Assembly (NCBI GenBank): GCA_001603075.1
Contig: LVBB01000079.1
Location: 1 to 47,895, forward strand
Source: Phycisphaerales bacterium Planc_01
GTDB lineage: Bacteria; Planctomycetota; Phycisphaerae; Sedimentisphaerales; Anaerobacaceae
Direction of reading: 5' to 3'
DNA: 47,895 nt
A program made the translations under genes and the position numbers. The notes beneath the pieces were generated by a model. It was not told where the DNA came from. It did no database searches and worked only from the letters and a program-made list of their open reading frames with translations. Positions 27,961 through 40,210 of this stretch are shown here, piece by piece. Each line of letters starts with the position of its first letter. Within the stretch, counting starts at the first letter, position 1.

Positions 27961-30033
<2,073 letters not shown>

Positions 30034-30532
30034 TGGTCCGGACGAGAAAAAAATTGCGTTTTTTCCGATATTTCCCCACAGGGCTGTTGACGCCGCGTGG
30101 GCTTCATGATAAGTTTATCGTTTTTCGGCTGTAGCGAGCATCGTCAGGACGACGGTGCGATACGTAGTTACGCTGTGGCATATCTGTGATTGCCATCAGG
30201 GATGGCTCAATGGGTTTTCTGTGGTACCGGGGTTTGGCAAAGCCGACAAGCGCTTTGTATGGGTCCTGACGTGGGCCCAAGCCTCTACCCCTTAAGGAAG
30301 GCCAAGTTCGGCTTTCGGCAGGGCGCCGATGAGCAGCCCCGACCGTGGGTCGAAGCCTTTTCTGCCAGTGACCAAGCGCGTTGCATCAGGCCGGGGCAGG
30401 AGTGTCTTCTGTTCCGGGGGGTCGGCGTGTAGGTTTGGATAACGATGTGGGTGCCCGTGGCGATCGTCGCAGCCGCGCAGAGCGAGTTGTTCGCTGGCAA
30501 GATGCGGTGGTCGGGTGGTCCAGAGGAGTAAT
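30034..30532 (+). other. Gene-free 499-base region: candidate structured leader of the S10 operon
   Basis: No convincing coding frame. It begins with an AT hairpin GAAAAAA/TTTTTTC (30046-30065), possibly the fusA end, then a promoter candidate at 30087-30115. Downstream are several stems: GCCATC/GATGGC (30192-30206, loop AGG), GGTTT/AAGCC (30231-30244), TGGGTCC/GGGCCCA (30260-30279), AAGGCC/GGCTTT (30298-30315), and CGACC/GGTCG (30340-30352). GGCTT at 30310-30314 can pair either with 30298-30303 or with AAGCC at 30353-30357, so two alternative folds exist. In E. coli the S10 leader mediates L4 autoregulation; a similar role here is inference. Confidence 0.5.
30087..30115 (+). promoter_or_regulatory. 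Candidate promoter of the S10-spc-alpha operon
   Basis: TTGACG (30087-30092), 17-base spacer, TAAGTT (30110-30115; a weak -10, preceded by TGA). It would give a leader of about 410 bases ahead of rpsJ. Confidence 0.4.
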
Positions 30533-30847
30533 ATGGCTGCCGAAACAGAGAGAATACGGATTCGGATGGAGGCGTACGACCATCGTGCGCTGGACGCCTC
30601 GGCCCGAGAGATCGTAGAGCATGCTCGTCGGACGAACGCCCGTGTCAGCGGCCCGGTCCCGCTTCCGACGCGGATCGAGCGGTACACGGTGTTGCGCAGT
30701 CCGCACATCGACAAGAAGTCGCGCGAGCAGTTCGAGTTGCGGACGCACAAGCGGCTGATCGACATCCACGAGGCGAACGCGAGGACGGCCGAGGTGCTGA
30801 ACCGGTTGGTGGTCCCCGCGGGTGTGTTCGTGAAGATCAAGGCGTAG
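30533..30847 (+). CDS. rpsJ: 30S ribosomal protein S10
   Basis: 104 residues. uS10 is part of the 30S head and also the NusE partner in antitermination, contacting NusG. Signatures: [32 protein letters not shown] and HKRLIDI. ATG 30533 is chosen because AGGAG ends 6 bases upstream and the preceding in-frame codons are unlike S10. First gene of the S10 operon. Confidence 0.97.
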
Positions 30848-30865
30848 AGCAAGGAACGTAAGACC

Positions 30866-31519
30866 ATGGCCATGCTGTTAGGGAAAAAGGTGGGGATGAC
30901 CCGTGTGTACGACGAATCGGGTCGGCTGATCCCGGTGACGGTGATCGAGGCCGGTCCGTGCACGATCACGCAGGTCAAGACTGCCGAGACGGATGGATAT
31001 GACGCCATCCAGGTCGGGTTCGATGACGTCAAGGCGTCGCGGCGGAAGCAGCCGCAGGTCGGCCACACCGAGAAGGCCGGCACGACCCCGAAGCGGTTCG
31101 TCCGGGAGTGGCGATTCGACGGCAAGCCCGAGGCGGAGTATCACGCGGGCGACGCGTTGACGGTGGCGCTGTTCAACGAAACGAAATATGTCGATGTGGT
31201 CGGCACCAGCAAGGGCAAGGGGTTTGCCGGCGTGATGAAACGCCATGGGTTCGGTGGCTTCCCGGCCTCGCACGGCACCGAGCGCAAACACCGGGCTCCG
31301 GGGTCGATCTCGAGCTTTTCGAGCAACGCCGGTACCGGCGGCCACCCGAAGAAGGGCAAGCGGATGGCCGGGCATATGGGCCATCGGCGCATCACGACCA
31401 AGAATCACAGCCTGGTGGCGATCGACGAGGAAAAGAACCTGTTGATCGTCAAAGGTGCGGTTCCGGGTCCGGCCGGTGGCTACTGCATCGTGCAAACTGC
31501 AAAGAGGCCCCAGAAATAG
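30866..31519 (+). CDS. rplC: 50S ribosomal protein L3
   Basis: 217 residues. uL3 starts LLGKKVGMTRVYDE and has KGKGFAGVMKRHGF and RAPGSI, GKRMAGHMG. The loop between PGSI and GKRMAG has 15 residues (SSFSSNAGTGGHPKK) against 11 in E. coli, and the methylated Gln150 of E. coli is not conserved. This loop reaches the peptidyl-transferase centre. The gene follows rpsJ by 18 bases and precedes rplD by 15. Confidence 0.97.
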   Translation: MAMLLGKKVGMTRVYDESGRLIPVTVIEAGPCTITQVKTAETDGYDAIQVGFDDVKASRRKQPQVGHTEKAGTTPKRFVREWRFDGKPEAEYHAGDALTVALFNETKYVDVVGTSKGKGFAGVMKRHGFGGFPASHGTERKHRAPGSISSFSSNAGTGGHPKKGKRMAGHMGHRRITTKNHSLVAIDEEKNLLIVKGAVPGPAGGYCIVQTAKRPQK

Positions 31520-31534
31520 AGAAGTGTACCAGCG

Positions 31535-32170
31535 ATGATTGAATTGAGTGTCTACAACCGCAGTGGCCAAGAGGTCGAGAAGTTCAGCGTCGATGAGAAG
31601 GTGCTGGGCGGGGCGGTGCGGTACGCGTTGCTCAAGCAGGCGATCGTGATGTACCATGCGAATCAGCGGCAGGGAACCGTCAAGACGAAGGGCCGCAGCG
31701 AGGTCGCCGGTTCGGACAAGAAGCTCTTCCGTCAGAAGGGCACCGGCAACGCTCGCGTGGGCAATCGTCGGACGGGCAAGCGCGTCGGCGGCGGCATGAC
31801 GTTTGCCAAGGTCCCGAGGGATTTCCGTCAGGCGATGCCGCGCAAGCAGCGACGGCTGGCGCGGGATTCCGCGGTTCTGGCGAAACTCCGCAAGAACCAG
31901 GTGGTGGTGGTGGACGGGCTGGGATTCGACAAGCCGAAGACCAAAGAGTTTGCCGGCGTCCTGAAGAGCCTGAAGATCGATCGCAGTTGCCTGGTGGCGG
32001 TCAAGGAGTACGACCAGAACCTGTACAAGTCGGTCCGGAACGTTCAGAAGGTGGACGTGCTTCCTGTGGCCGACCTGAATGCGGGCGACATTTGCACGCA
32101 CCAGAGAATGCTGTTCACGAAGGATGCCCTGGTGGCGTTCCTGAATCGAGATGCCGACAGCGAGAGCTGA
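31535..32170 (+). CDS. rplD: 50S ribosomal protein L4
   Basis: 211 residues. uL4 lines the exit tunnel: N-terminal YNRSGQEVEKFSV, the tunnel loop KGRSEVAGSDKKLFRQKGTG and GGMTFAKVPRDF. In E. coli it represses the S10 operon through the leader. Here the next gene, rplW, is separated by 65 bases that contain a strong hairpin (32190-32212), while most neighbours are closer. Confidence 0.97.
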   Translation: MIELSVYNRSGQEVEKFSVDEKVLGGAVRYALLKQAIVMYHANQRQGTVKTKGRSEVAGSDKKLFRQKGTGNARVGNRRTGKRVGGGMTFAKVPRDFRQAMPRKQRRLARDSAVLAKLRKNQVVVVDGLGFDKPKTKEFAGVLKSLKIDRSCLVAVKEYDQNLYKSVRNVQKVDVLPVADLNAGDICTHQRMLFTKDALVAFLNRDADSES

Positions 32171-32189
32171 CGGGTAAGCGTACAGACAG

Positions 32190-32212
32190 GCCGATCCGCA
32201 AGGCGGGTCGGC
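32190..32212 (+). other. Strong hairpin between rplD and rplW
   Basis: GCCGATCCGC (32190-32199) pairs with GCGGGTCGGC (32203-32212), triloop AAG, ten pairs including one G-U. Three bases later there are only four T (32215-32218), so it is a partial terminator or an RNA-processing stem. It is the only such structure seen within the S10 operon. Confidence 0.5.
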
Positions 32213-32235
32213 GATTTTGAGAATGCGGTCTTGTG

Positions 32236-32514
32236 ATGGATGATTTCAACGTGATAGTCCGGCCCCTGGTTACGGAACAGGGGATGCACTTCGCCAATGT
32301 GAAGGGCGCGTATTCCTTCGAGGTCAATCGGAAGGCGAACAAGACGCAAGTCAAGAACGCCGTCGAGAAGATCTACGGGGTCAAGGTGGACAAGGTGCGA
32401 ACGGCCAACCGCAAGGGCAAGCAGAGGCGGCGCGGGCGGACGATCGGCATGACGTCGAGCTGGAAGAAGGCCGTCGTATACTTGCAGCCGGACTACCACA
32501 TCGATCTGTTCTAA
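32236..32514 (+). CDS. rplW: 50S ribosomal protein L23
   Basis: 92 residues from ATG 32236 (a GTG directly before it, 32233, is the alternative). uL23 docks trigger factor and SRP at the tunnel exit. Signatures: NVIVRPLVTEQG, YSFEVNRKANKTQVKNAVEKIYGVKV and RRGRTIGMTSSWKKAVV. The Shine-Dalgarno sequence is weak; coupling to rplD is broken by the 65-base gap. Confidence 0.95.
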   Translation: MDDFNVIVRPLVTEQGMHFANVKGAYSFEVNRKANKTQVKNAVEKIYGVKVDKVRTANRKGKQRRRGRTIGMTSSWKKAVVYLQPDYHIDLF

Positions 32515-32541
32515 GGTGGCACGGTAGAGAGAGAGTGCGTT

Positions 32542-33393
32542 ATGGGCATTCGGATTTATAGACCAACCAGCGCCGGGCGGCGGAACAGCTCCGTGAACGA
32601 CTATGCGGAACTGACGACGAATCGGCCGGAAAAGACGTTGTGCAAGCGGATCAAGAAACGCGGCGGGCGCAACCACCACGGGGTCACCACGACACGGTTT
32701 CGTGGCGGGGGCGCGCGGCGGATCTACCGCATGATCGATTTCAAGCGCAACAAGGACGGGGTTGCGGCGACGGTTGCGACGGTCGAGTACGACCCGAATC
32801 GCAGTTGCTTCATCTCGCTGCTCCAGTACGAGGACGGAGAGAAGCGGTACATCCTGTCCCCGATGGGCGTGAAGGTCGGCGATGTGATCGAGAGCGGCCC
32901 GGTGTGCGAGCCGAAGCCGGGGAACGCGATGCCTCTGGCGGCGATCCCGGCGAGCCTCGAGGTCCACAACGTCGAGATGACGGCGGGCCAGGGGGGCAAG
33001 CTGGTTCGCGGCGCCGGAAACGCGGCACGGATTGTCGCCAAAGATGGCGACTGGGTGACGCTGGTTCTGCCGAGCGGCGAGATGCGTATGGTTCGCAAAG
33101 AGTGCCGGGCGACGATCGGCCGGCTCAGCAATGCCGAGCATCAGAACGTGCGCATCGGCAAGGCCGGTCGCAAGCGGCACATGGGCCGTCGGCCTCACGT
33201 TCGCGGCAAGGCGATGAACCCGGTGGCGCACCCGATGGGCGGCGGCGAAGGCCGGTCGAACGGCGGGCGGCACCCGTGTTCGCCCAAGGGCAAGCTGGCC
33301 AAGGGCGGCAAAACGCGGAACCCGCGCAAGACGAGCAACAATCGCATTATTCGACGGCGCAAGAACACGCGGCAAGGACAGTTGACGCTGTAA
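32542..33393 (+). CDS. rplB: 50S ribosomal protein L2
   Basis: 283 residues. uL2 is needed for subunit joining and sits near the peptidyl-transferase centre. Signatures: RTSAG-like PTSAGRRNSSV start, GGRNHHGVTTTRFRGGG, AGNAARIVAKDG and the C-terminal VAHPMGGGEGRSNGGRHP with the conserved His. Normal length; start ATG 32542 is 27 bases after rplW. Confidence 0.98.
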   Translation: MGIRIYRPTSAGRRNSSVNDYAELTTNRPEKTLCKRIKKRGGRNHHGVTTTRFRGGGARRIYRMIDFKRNKDGVAATVATVEYDPNRSCFISLLQYEDGEKRYILSPMGVKVGDVIESGPVCEPKPGNAMPLAAIPASLEVHNVEMTAGQGGKLVRGAGNAARIVAKDGDWVTLVLPSGEMRMVRKECRATIGRLSNAEHQNVRIGKAGRKRHMGRRPHVRGKAMNPVAHPMGGGEGRSNGGRHPCSPKGKLAKGGKTRNPRKTSNNRIIRRRKNTRQGQLTL

Positions 33394-33462
33394 GGATGAC
33401 TGGTGCCTCGGGGAATGCGGCGGCTTGGTCGCAGCGGGCCCCGGGCCATGAAGAGAGCCAAG

Positions 33463-33732
33463 ATGAGTAGATCGCTCAAAAAGGGACCGTTTGTTGACGA
33501 GAAGCTGTTTGCCAAGGTGAACCGGCAGATCAGCGAGGGCAGTCGCAATCCGATCAAGACCTGGGCGCGTCGGTGTACGATCGTCCCGGAGTTCGTCGGG
33601 TTTACCTTCATGGTCCACAACGGCAAGCTGTTCCACAAAGTGTTCGTGACGGAAGATATGGTCGGGCATAAGCTCGGGGAGTTTTCGCTCACGCGGACGT
33701 TCAAGGGCCATTCGAGTAAGAAGATCAAATAG
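33463..33732 (+). CDS. rpsS: 30S ribosomal protein S19
   Basis: 89 residues. uS19: [14 protein letters not shown] start, [21 protein letters not shown] and [16 protein letters not shown] 33463 is chosen from the family N-terminus; the frame extends 20 codons upstream, where homology is absent. It lies 69 bases after rplB and 49 before the unusual rplV. Confidence 0.97.
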
Positions 33733-33781
33733 GACGTGCGTGTGGGCGAGACGTTGACCCACCGGGTACGGAACCGAAGGT

Positions 33782-34330
33782 ATGATTAGCGCAACGAAAC
33801 TTAGAGAAGTGTGCCAGCAGCAGCGGATGACCGCCGACGACCTGGGCAAGAGTATCGCGCGGGGCGGGTTCGACGACAAGGCGGCGGCGGCGGCGGTGCG
33901 GAACTGGCAGAGGGGCCTGTTCAAGCCGAGGCCTCGGACGGAAGACATCCGCCGGCTGGCGGAGGCGCTGGACGTCGAGCCGGTCGAGATCGCGGACTGG
34001 CGGTCGTCGTATCAGTACGCTCCGATGTCGGCGCGGAAGGTGCGGCTGGTAACGCAGTTGATCGTCGGGCGCAGCGTGCAGGATGCAATGGACATCCTGA
34101 AGTTCACCCGCAAACGCGGCGCACCGATGGTCGACAAGGTGCTCAAAGCGGCGGTGGCGGATGCCGACGAGCAGCAGGCGGACGTCGAGCAGTTGTACGT
34201 CAGCGAGGCGCGCGTCGACGATGCCGGGGTTCGGCTGGGGACCAAGCGATGGATCCCGAAGGACCGCGGTCGGGCGCACCCGATTCGCAAGAGGGCCTGC
34301 CATATTCACGTGACCGTGACGCAGGCGTAG
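33782..34330 (+). CDS. rplV: Ribosomal protein L22 with N-terminal XRE-like helix-turn-helix
   Basis: 182 residues, against about 110 for uL22. Residues 76-182 are L22: YAPMSARKVRLVTQLIVG, AVADADEQ, the tunnel hairpin GTKRWIPKDRGRAHPI and the ending HIHVTVTQA. Residues 6-73 read like a Cro/XRE helix-turn-helix: KLREVCQQQRMTADDLGKSI, AVRNWQRGLFKPRP, then EDIRRLAEALDVEPVEIADW. That is the classic five-helix pattern, with the recognition helix about 34-42. The start is supported by conserved reading from ATG 33782 with no better internal start before the L22 part (first internal Met is 16; next is 82, inside L22). The extra domain may bind RNA or DNA; function is unknown. Confidence 0.92.
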   Translation: MISATKLREVCQQQRMTADDLGKSIARGGFDDKAAAAAVRNWQRGLFKPRPRTEDIRRLAEALDVEPVEIADWRSSYQYAPMSARKVRLVTQLIVGRSVQDAMDILKFTRKRGAPMVDKVLKAAVADADEQQADVEQLYVSEARVDDAGVRLGTKRWIPKDRGRAHPIRKRACHIHVTVTQA

Positions 34331-34363
34331 GCAGGAGAATGTAGGGAAGATACCGAGCGGACT

Positions 34364-35146
34364 ATGGGCCAGAAGACATCGCCAATTGGTTTCAGAACGG
34401 GAGTCACCCTCGGATGGCAGAGCACGTGGTTCGCGCCGAAAGCGAGCTACGGGGACTGCCTGGTCGAGGATCAGAAGATTCGAGAGTTCGTGGATCGGCG
34501 GTTCAACCAGCGGATGCCGAAGGGGGCGGTGGCGCGGGTCGAGATCGTGCGGACGCGGAATGAAGTGAACGTGACGATGCACAGCGGCCGGCCCGGCGTG
34601 GTCATCGGGCCGCGCGGGGGCGAGGTCGATAAGGTCCGTGAGGAGCTTGAGACGTTCATCGGCCGCAAGGTCACGGTCAACGTGGTCGAGATCAAGGAGC
34701 CCGACCTGAATGCGGCGCTGGTGGCCCAGGGGATTGCCGAGCAGTTGGGCAAACGGGCGTCGTTCCGGCGCACGATGAAGCAGTACTGCGAAGGCGCGAT
34801 GAACGCCGGGGCGCGAGGGGTGAAGATCATGTGCTCCGGGCGTCTGGCGGGTTCGGAAATGGCCCGGACCGAGACGCAGAAGATGGGGAGCATCCCGCTG
34901 CACACGCTGGACGCGGACGTGGACTACGCTCTGGGCACGGCCCGGACGACGTACGGGGCGATCGGCATCAAGGTGTGGATCTACAAAGGGAAGTTCGGGG
35001 AGGAGAAGGAACTGGTGCGGCGGCGTCCGCCGCGACGCAGGCCGATGCGATCGGGAGGCGGTCCCAGGTCGGAAGGGCCCCGGGGCGAAGCCGCCGAGGC
35101 AGGCAGTGACGGCGGCGCCGAGGCAGGGTCCGCACCGAGAGAGTAG
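34364..35146 (+). CDS. rpsC: 30S ribosomal protein S3
   Basis: 260 residues, longer than the usual 210-235. uS3: MGQKTSPIGFRTGV start, KH domain with GVVIGPRGGEVDKV (GxxG is GPRG), then the S3 C-terminal domain GARGVKIMCSGRLAGSEMART and YGAIGIKVWIYKGKFG. The last 40 residues are a low-complexity Arg/Gly/Pro/Glu tail (RRRPPRRRP..., then GGAEAGSAPRE). S3 lines the mRNA entry channel. 33 bases after rplV. Confidence 0.97.
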   Translation: MGQKTSPIGFRTGVTLGWQSTWFAPKASYGDCLVEDQKIREFVDRRFNQRMPKGAVARVEIVRTRNEVNVTMHSGRPGVVIGPRGGEVDKVREELETFIGRKVTVNVVEIKEPDLNAALVAQGIAEQLGKRASFRRTMKQYCEGAMNAGARGVKIMCSGRLAGSEMARTETQKMGSIPLHTLDADVDYALGTARTTYGAIGIKVWIYKGKFGEEKELVRRRPPRRRPMRSGGGPRSEGPRGEAAEAGSDGGAEAGSAPRE

Positions 35147-35199
35147 ACGCGGTCCGTCCGGGTGCATGGGCGGCATTGAGTAGTAAAGGGTCGTAAGTC

Positions 35200-35619
35200 A
35201 TGGCGATGATGCCGAAACGAGTCAAGTACCGCAAGAGCCAGCGTGGCAAGATGAAGGGCAACGCCACGCGGTGCAACTACGTTGCGTTCGGCGATTATGG
35301 TCTTCAGGTGCTCGAAACGAGTTGGATCACGGCCAAGCACATCGAGGCCGGACGCGTCGCGGCGACGCACTTCCTTCATCGCGAAGGCAAGGTCTATATT
35401 CGGATCTTCCCGCACAAGCCGGTCAGCTCGAAGCCGCTGGAAACCCGAATGGGTAAGGGCAAGGGCGAACCGGAGTTCTGGGTGGCCAGGGTTCGGCCAG
35501 GCCAGGTGTGCTTCGAGATCGGCGGCGTGGGTGAAGACGTGGCCCGGGAGGCCCTGGCGAGGGTGGCGCACAAGATGCCCATCCGGTGTCGGTTCGTGCG
35601 ACGCAGGCATACGGTCTGA
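35200..35619 (+). CDS. rplP: 50S ribosomal protein L16
   Basis: 139 residues. uL16 organises the A site of 23S r[21 protein letters not shown] start, [40 protein letters not shown] with the Arg-Met-Gly-Lys motif. Standard length; 53 bases after rpsC and 13 before rpmC. Confidence 0.98.
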
Positions 35620-35632
35620 GAGAGGATATCAC

Positions 35633-35821
35633 GTGAAGGCCAAGCAGTTGAGAGAGATGAACCAGGACGAGCTCCAGAGCACGATGGAAGACCTCCAGAG
35701 GCGCCTCTTCGACCTGCGGTCGCAGTCGGTGACGGAGAAGCTGGAGAACTCGAAAGCAATCATCAATACGCGTCGCGACGTGGCACGCATCAAGACGCTG
35801 TTGCGTGAGCGCAAGAAGTAA
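35633..35821 (+). CDS. rpmC: 50S ribosomal protein L29
   Basis: 62 residues from GTG 35633, with GAGAGGA 6 bases upstream. uL29 at the tunnel exit: [45 protein letters not shown]. The GTG is chosen because the frame upstream overlaps rplP and has no L29 homology. It ends 28 bases before rpsQ. Confidence 0.95.
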
Positions 35822-35849
35822 CGGACACGATCGCAGGCACGGGTTGGAT

Positions 35850-36122
35850 ATGGTCCCTATGGAAACGCAGAAAGAACCGAGAACGCTGACGGGCGTGGTC
35901 ACCAGCAAGAGCGGCATCAAGAGCATTCGGGTGACGATGGAGTACAAGGTGAAGCACCCGAAGTACGGCAAGTACGTGCGGCGGCGGACGAAGCTGGCCG
36001 TGCACGACGAGCAGAACGGCTGTGGCGTGGGCGATCTGGTGGAGATCGCGGAGTGCCGGCCGCTGAGCAAGACGAAGAGTTGGCGCGTGTTGCGCGTGAT
36101 CCAGAAGGCAGTGGCGGTCTAA
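35850..36122 (+). CDS. rpsQ: 30S ribosomal protein S17
   Basis: 90 residues from ATG 35850; ATG 35859 (87 residues) is equally possible because neither has a clear Shine-Dalgarno sequence. uS17: [58 protein letters not shown]. It binds 16S rRNA early in 30S assembly. 24 bases before rplN. Confidence 0.95.
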
Positions 36123-37569: not shown

Positions 37570-37755
37570 ATGTCGACGAAAGCGTTGGAACTGAAGGTCA
37601 AGAAGAAACAGAAATTCCGGGTCCGGCAGTACACGCGATGCGAGCTGTGCGGCCGGTCGAAGGCCGTGTACCGGAAGTTCAAGGTCTGTCGCATCTGTTT
37701 TCGAACGTTGGCGAACGAAGGCAAGATCCCGGGCGTCAAGAAAGCCAGTTGGTAG
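37570..37755 (+). CDS. rpsN: 30S ribosomal protein S14, zinc-binding type
   Basis: 61 residues, the short type-Z uS14. Zinc ribbon CELC (24-27) and CRIC (40-43) intact; [27 protein letters not shown] is the standard end. The organism therefore uses the zinc form at this locus. 46 bases before rpsH. Confidence 0.97.
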
Positions 37756-39194: not shown

Positions 39195-39698
39195 TTGGCT
39201 GCAGAACCGGTGAGAAAACCCGAGCATGAAGAGAAGCCGTTGGAAGATACGGTGGTCAAGATCTATCGCTGTGCCAAGGTGGTCAAGGGCGGGCGGCGCT
39301 TCAGCTTCGCGGCCCTGGTGGTCGTCGGCGACCGGGCCGGGAACGTAGGTGTTGGCTACGGGAAGGCCAACGAGGTGCCCTTGGCGGTAGAGAAGGGGAT
39401 GAAAGACGCGAAGAAGTCGATGCACAGCGTGCCGCTGGTGGAGCGGACGATTCCGCACCAAGTGATCGGCCGGTTTGGGGCGACGAAGATCGTCCTGGTC
39501 CCGGCCAGTCCGGGTACGGGCGTCATCGCCGGCTCGAGCGCCCGAGCGGTGCTCGAGTTTGCGGGGGTCCACGATGTGTTGACGAAGGTGTACGGAAGCA
39601 CGGCGGCCAAGAATGTGGTGAAAGCCACGCTCAACGGATTGCTGAGGCTGCGCAACAGAGAAACGATTGAAGCGTTACGGGGTGTCAGCATTTCGTAG
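39195..39698 (+). CDS. rpsE: 30S ribosomal protein S5
   Basis: 167 residues from TTG 39195, 29 bases after rplR, with GGGAG 6 bases upstream. uS5: DTVVKIYRCAKVVKGGRRFSFAALVVVGD, GNVGVGYGKANEVPLAVEKGM, PGTGVIAGSSARAVLEFAGVHDV, YGSTAAKNVVKATLNGL. It acts in decoding fidelity and mRNA helicase activity. A rare TTG start in a highly expressed operon suggests tuned or coupled translation. Confidence 0.96.
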   Translation: MAAEPVRKPEHEEKPLEDTVVKIYRCAKVVKGGRRFSFAALVVVGDRAGNVGVGYGKANEVPLAVEKGMKDAKKSMHSVPLVERTIPHQVIGRFGATKIVLVPASPGTGVIAGSSARAVLEFAGVHDVLTKVYGSTAAKNVVKATLNGLLRLRNRETIEALRGVSIS

Positions 39699-39727
39699 CG
39701 GCCACGATGACCAATTGGGTGATCTAA

Positions 39728-40210
39728 ATGTTGAGTCATGAGATAACTTCTGTCGTAGGCAAACACCAAGGACGCAAGCGCGTGGGACGCGGGCGCGGCG
39801 CGGGCTCAGGGAAGACCGCCGGCCGCGGGCACAAAGGCAGCCACAGCCGGGCTGGAGCGGGAAGATTGTCGCTCTATGAAGGCGGGCAGATGCCCTTGTT
39901 CCGACGGGTGCCGAAGCGCGGGTTTAACAATAAGCAGTTTGCCAGTCGATTCGAAATCGTCAACGTTTCGCAGTTGGAAGGCTTTGAGGATGGCGCGCAG
40001 ATCGGCGTCGAGCAGCTCTTGCGGGCCGGCCTGGTCGACGATGTCCAGAGCAAGGTCAAGATCCTCGGGGACGGCGAACTGACGAAACGGCTGCTCGTGG
40101 CGGCCCATAAGTTCAGCAAGACGGCCGAGCAGAAGATCGTCGGCTGCGGCGGTACGGCGACGAGAGTCGGCGGCAAGGAAAACAAGAGTGTCCGACGCAA
40201 GCGCGCCTGA
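39728..40210 (+). CDS. rplO: 50S ribosomal protein L15
   Basis: 160 residues. uL15: KRVGRGRGAGSGKTAGRGHKGSHSRAG, EGGQMPLFRRVPKRGF, VGCGGTATRVGGKENKSVR (short end). It begins 29 bases after rpsE: rpmD (L30), which normally lies between rpsE and rplO, is absent and nothing in 39699-39727 could encode it. Confidence 0.97.
   Translation: MLSHEITSVVGKHQGRKRVGRGRGAGSGKTAGRGHKGSHSRAGAGRLSLYEGGQMPLFRRVPKRGFNNKQFASRFEIVNVSQLEGFEDGAQIGVEQLLRAGLVDDVQSKVKILGDGELTKRLLVAAHKFSKTAEQKIVGCGGTATRVGGKENKSVRRKRA

Follow-up and report, generated by a model that had tools for sequence, protein, structure and literature searches.

The window, by which we mean the whole 47,895-nucleotide stretch of DNA that was analysed, contains an open reading frame at 33782-34330 (+) that encodes a protein of 182 amino acids. 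Residues 78-179 match Pfam Ribosomal_L22 (PF00237) at 104.8 bits against a cut-off of 28, and the protein scores 92.1 bits against the bacterial rplV model TIGR01044 (cut-off 73.65). uL22 is a universal ribosomal protein. Here its gene lies between those for S19 and S3 (recognized through Pfam), as a single-copy member of the S10 operon, and it gave the sole PF00237 match found in the draft genome (5.65 Mb, 97% complete). The operon begins with rpsJ, its ATG selected within an open reading frame (30515-30847) that we take from its sequence to be rpsJ (S10). What sets the protein apart is the 75 residues that precede the L22 core. The features discussed below are collected in Table 1.

Table 1. 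Features of the uL22 gene and of the start of the S10 operon (positions are those of the window)
Feature	Coordinates	Strand	Basis
Conserved structured leader RNA 5' of rpsJ, candidate target of autoregulation	30120..30215	+	Covariance model, covariation
rpsJ (S10), at the head of the operon	30533..30847	+	ATG selected within the open reading frame
N-terminal XRE/Cro-C1-type HTH domain of uL22 (residues 1-75)	33782..34006	+	Pfam matches of relatives, predicted fold, conservation
Predicted HTH helices	33791-33823, 33833-33856, 33875-33910, 33938-33970	+	AlphaFold
uL22 (rplV) core (residues 76-182) and stop codon	34007..34330	+	PF00237, TIGR01044
uL22 residues 146-156	34217..34249	+	11 residues in 35/35 rows of the order, 8 in 29/29 rows of the second lineage

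A few features of the surrounding genes may be recorded here. An EF-G-like gene (27961-30033, +; so called on our own reading of its sequence) directly precedes the leader RNA. Downstream of uL22, a 61-amino acid S14-like open reading frame (37570-37755, +) has four cysteines arranged as two CxxC pairs, the pattern of zinc-type S14. Further on, between an rpsE-like and an rplO-like gene, the interval 39698-39728 offers no space for rpmD (uL30), and PF00327, which matches 13 of 14 control genomes, finds nothing in the whole draft genome. Within uL22 itself, residues 146-156, in the hairpin region, include three extra residues in all 35 aligned rows from the window's order, and these are present in none of the 29 rows from the second lineage that bears the extension (described below).

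The first-pass annotation had read the N-terminal addition as a helix-turn-helix (HTH) domain of the XRE/Cro type fused to L22, and that reading is supported by the Pfam scores of relatives, by the predicted fold, and by conservation. The HMM search that it proposed divides, however, between the window and its relatives. The window's own extension falls below the Pfam cut-offs (18 bits against 27 for HTH_31, 16.8 against 22 for HTH_26, and 16.4 against 23 for HTH_3), but the extensions from five of eight selected relatives reach a cut-off, one of them merely equalling it (27 against 27). Amongst these, HTH_19 scores as high as 35.3 bits (cut-off 30.2) and HTH_3 as high as 33.7 (cut-off 23). 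When 64 full-length proteins were searched at E<=0.001, 11 matched HTH_31, 5 HTH_3, 3 HTH_19, and 1 HTH_26, and most had no match. The window's own sequence being sub-threshold, the assignment is one that the family supports.

Structure prediction points the same way. The AlphaFold model, another check that had been proposed, is a confident one, with a mean pLDDT of 91.1 and a pTM of 0.82 for the full protein and a mean pLDDT of 92.8 for the domain alone. Helices are predicted at residues 4-14, 18-25, 32-43, and 53-63, followed by a continuous strand (71-80) that bridges the HTH and the uL22 fold. The structural neighbours of the domain are of the XRE type: the top structures returned by Foldseek are XRE controllers and repressors, at a probability of 1.00 (best E 0.011, none below 0.001), and VIA-align gave C.Csp231I at Z 10.1, with an rmsd of 2.2 across 69 residues, in a range (Z below about 13) that can be middling with helical folds. 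It is on the Pfam matches of the selected relatives that the assignment rests. The 50 rows of VIA-align consist of regulators, repressors, and similar HTH entries, except for 16 that are HppE, HEPD, or MPnS enzymes, and in those the matched part is presumably XRE-like.

An N-terminal addition might be no more than a misplaced start codon, and proteomic evidence of a start near Met82 had been named by the first-pass annotation as one of the observations that would refute its claim. When the rows were compared, Met82 proved not to be conserved: it is present in 20 of the 35 rows from the order and in 0 of the 29 from the second lineage. Met16 fares no better (15 of 35 and 2 of 29), and an internal start at either position was rejected on these grounds. 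L22 was matched in 57 of 61 relatives, every one within an open frame of at least 183 residues. Fifty of these 57 loci were inspected, taking as the start the ATG closest to 76 codons before the core, and 49 have an ATG approximately 72-81 codons ahead of the core, opening the same domain. The single exception (L049) is divergent, yet the extension profile matches there too, at E 1.5e-12 (G045). Shine-Dalgarno sequences did not help to fix the start, as they precede it in 20 of 35 rows and also occur at 65 of 140 control places.

The pattern of substitution bears on the same question. In comparisons with seven relatives, third codon positions vary the most, and dN/dS lies between 0.06 and 0.33 for the extension and between 0.02 and 0.11 for the core, dS being close to saturation in the most distant of the seven pairs. 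These values indicate that the extension is translated and selected, and conservation together with the codon pattern rejects chance or an artefact of reading frame. The extension is under purifying selection, less tight than that on the core, since both dN and dN/dS are greater in the extension in each of the seven pairs. The 75-residue addition, first noticed in one sequence, is real, old, conserved in relatives, and under selection in two planctomycete lineages.

The looser selection on the extension, and also its absence from many related genomes, would suit a domain that assists the folding of uL22 or an early step in 50S assembly, or one that is a near-neutral passenger or relic, in each case with no role in the mature ribosome. 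Such an explanation must contend with the purifying selection just described, with the near-constant length of the domain, and with residues that are invariant in distant genomes, and we consider it quite unlikely.

How widely is the domain shared? The earlier suggestion that relatives might have it was borne out, both in the window's order and beyond it, by a survey of L22 N-termini of the kind then proposed. Of 59 genomes sampled from the order, 56 match a profile of the extension alone, once each and always in a frame of at least 183 residues. The order, taken here to be Sedimentisphaerales, sits in class Phycisphaerae according to NCBI, and in a sample of that class 89 of 298 genomes match: 60 from the window's order, 27 from family f10, and 2 from family f25. 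The remaining 209 have no match to the extension. In a sample of the phylum, 15 of 294 genomes match, 14 of them from the class. The fifteenth (G363) is a partial match of 29.7 bits within a 912-residue frame that is not L22. In the class sample, one genome (G015) gives, besides its first match, a second hit of 22.8 bits, also in a much longer frame. As these two hits were the only candidates, stand-alone copies of the extension were rejected, at the depth of the class and phylum runs, where at most 19 candidates were scored per genome and weak stand-alone kin could escape. Looking instead from the side of L22, 64 of 80 named loci carry the extension (among the 16 that do not, L158 ends at a contig edge). 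In a set of 20 loci of the class it is missing from 13, and in a set of 58 loci from class and phylum it occurs in 0.

The bearers do not form a single group. A tree based on L2, S19, S3, and L16 (74 rows, 718 columns, made by a quick method) places them in two groups, requiring two changes of state, with support of 89 for the window's order and 55 for the second group. A larger FastTree run agrees with the two groups. Those members of the second group whose titles give an order or family are Phycisphaerales or Phycisphaeraceae. The tree of the L22 core, with only 101 columns, also rejects the bearers as a single clade (AU p 0.0076), and with that the transfer of a whole HTH-L22 gene from one lineage to the other was rejected. 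The core tree splits the second lineage as well (2 changes, at forks that are weak), and family f25 may stand apart from the rest of it.

Did the two lineages then acquire their domains separately? Profiles of the extension from one lineage score 36-75 bits against the other, whereas frames at five HTH_3 loci, a small set of decoys all from the window's own genome, do not exceed 9 bits, and the best non-L22 hit of a mixed profile in the phylum sample reaches 29.7 bits. Furthermore, residues 73 to 86, which span the junction, are ungapped in all 64 rows, and both lineages join L22 at the identical residue. Given the cross-scores and the identical junction, independent fusions of unrelated XRE domains are unlikely. 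The simplest readings of these sequences would be one old fusion followed by several losses, or else a transfer confined to the gene's 5' portion.

Clues to what the domain does come from the residues that are kept and those that are not. W42 is found in 64 of 64 rows and N41 in 63. Positions 33, 34, 36, and 37 of helix 3, which are base-facing in XRE repressors, show high entropy among orthologues. Their variability speaks against one fixed DNA target, although it would also be expected if different lineages bound different DNA sites. Beyond helix 3, the second lineage retains a loop (D47 in 24 of 29 rows, H48 in 27, P49 in 29, R50 in 26), while in the window's order no position of the domain is more variable than position 50 (entropy 3.13 bits). 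The extension is basic, with a median pI of 9.5 over the 35 rows of the order and 9.7 over the 29 of the second lineage, but its net charge is modest (medians of +3 and +4, range -2 to +9).

Perhaps uL22 moonlights in transcription, as the first-pass annotation suggested, acting as an XRE transcription factor either off the ribosome or after cleavage, or perhaps it couples nascent ribosomes to DNA. The XRE fold would lend itself to such a task, and repressors and controllers that bind DNA are frequent among its nearest structures. But with base-facing positions that are not conserved and a predicted junction that runs unbroken from HTH to uL22, we regard this explanation as quite unlikely.

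The variable base-facing positions, set against the constant N41-W42, favour a domain docked on the ribosome over a reader of DNA. Computation finds the domain in frame, under purifying selection, with a predicted XRE fold, and as part of L22. We infer, with a probability of roughly 0.5, that uL22 in these organisms is a two-domain ribosomal protein, whose HTH is docked on the 50S subunit in a structural or docking role rather than in the reading of DNA. According to the model, the XRE-type HTH (residues 1-75) would run via the predicted strand 71-80 into the uL22 fold and would be retained on the solvent face of the mature 50S subunit, close to the tunnel exit. The end of helix 3 and the loop that follows (N41-W42...G45...P49) would bind rRNA or a neighbouring protein. 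The domain might stabilize the surface of the 50S subunit in a lineage-specific manner, or it might offer a docking site for a factor that acts at the tunnel exit.

Published accounts provide a setting for this model. uL22 lines the nascent-chain tunnel (PMC13338714), and in the E. coli ribosome uL22, uL23, uL24, and uL29 encircle the exit of that tunnel (PMC5071890); the same paper describes long extensions on uL22c of the chloroplast ribosome. There is also precedent for a Cro/C1-type HTH at work on a ribosome, in that EDF1/Mbf1 has its HTH lodged between h16 and h33 of 18S rRNA (PMC7486125), and this position between helices of the small-subunit rRNA may serve as a model for docking. Several observations weigh against a docked domain. 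The D47-R50 loop is kept in the second lineage only and not in the window's order, the net charge is modest, and the domain is missing from most of the sampled genomes of the class (209 of 298). Also, the invariance of W42 may reflect mere packing of the core.

The leader RNA upstream of rpsJ raises a different possibility. Seven sequences were used to build a covariance model, which matches 37 of 61 relatives. These include 33 of the 37 genomes from the window's family and 4 of the 24 others from the order, though a miss says little, the model's training sequences having come from close kin. In all 29 of the relatives' loci that were checked, rpsJ lies approximately 209-479 nt downstream of the leader, and of the seven weakest matches, six are by their coordinates on the L22 contig, about 3.4 to 3.9 kb ahead of L22. 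In an alignment of 30 sequences (which was fitted to the covariance model), 85.7% of cells form pairs. In 29 cells both sides of the pair have changed, versus 3-8 when the pairing is slid by 1-3 columns. By another measure covariation is not above chance: six pairs changed on both sides, a number reached by 143 of 500 shuffles. The window's leader, folded as a single sequence, is only mildly stable (z -1.31, with 18 of 200 shuffles equally good). Rfam gave 0 matches at E<=1 over positions 29000-36000 of the window. A dyad within the leader was considered as the operator of a regulon and rejected, since the genome has one such site when up to 1 mismatch is tolerated.

In E. coli, uL4 serves as an autogenous regulator of the S10 operon. 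HTH-uL22 might do the same, as the first-pass annotation had also proposed, if the free protein, present in excess, bound to the S10 leader RNA or to promoter DNA and so shut down the operon. Its gene does belong to that operon, and the leader is conserved among relatives, consistently followed by rpsJ, richer in two-sided changes than its slid controls, and unmatched in Rfam. However, the leader is found in only 4 of 24 genomes of the order outside the family, although those groups carry the extension, and its ligand could be a different protein of the S10 operon. Furthermore, the single occurrence of the dyad gives no regulon, one measure of covariation is at the level of shuffles, and the single-sequence fold is weak. 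Regulation of this kind by HTH-uL22 is possible but doubtful. The RNA itself makes a good candidate autoregulatory leader and would be a natural target, with either the HTH or another protein of the operon as its ligand.

The two roles need not exclude one another. HTH-uL22 might be structural near the tunnel exit and, when unassembled, recognize the S10 leader RNA and thereby set the output of ribosomal proteins. We think such a dual role unlikely. If it were true, then this would be a ribosomal protein with a captured repressor-type domain as its autoregulatory module.

The two-domain protein may be compared with systems already known. In its core score, its position between S19 and S3, and its single copy, the window's protein resembles other bacterial uL22 proteins (PF00237, TIGR01044). 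It differs from them by the 75-residue N-terminal HTH and, in the window's order, by the 3 additional residues at 146-156. The N-terminal part resembles XRE/Cro-C1 domains (HTH_3, HTH_19, and HTH_31; C.Csp231I, C.AhdI, and P22 c2) in helix pattern, in the W..G...P motif, and in fold, but it belongs to a ribosomal protein and has variable residues at the base-facing positions. The uL22 extensions also make up a subfamily of their own, scoring 36-75 bits between lineages as opposed to at most 9 bits for the five decoy loci and 29.7 bits for the best non-L22 hit of the mixed profile.

Mbf1/EDF1 offers an HTH of the same class acting on a ribosome (PMC7486125), but as a separate protein of eukaryotes and archaea, bound to the small subunit, in which the HTH is C-terminal and follows another domain. 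No MBF1 or zinc-ribbon domain lies ahead of the HTH of uL22, the protein beginning with helix 1 at residue 4. PRK12279 (NF008917) is, by its family title, a fusion of uL22 with an unknown domain, but the window's protein matches its L22 part only (residues 82-179, 50.2 bits against a cut-off of 526). The uL22c of chloroplasts (PMC5071890) and uL22m of mitochondria are likewise enlarged at their termini. The alignments of two spinach chloroplast chains start at query residue 55, and those of some mitochondrial chains at residue 67, so that they reach the end of the extension only, and none covers the whole HTH.

No case of an HTH-L22 fusion was known to the first-pass annotation, and none was found described in the titles and abstracts of the open-licence PMC literature, among the matches listed. 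Both parts of the protein belong to known families, but their stable fusion within a universal ribosomal protein appears to be new. It shows that a bacterial ribosomal protein can acquire a whole folded domain of the repressor type and retain it.
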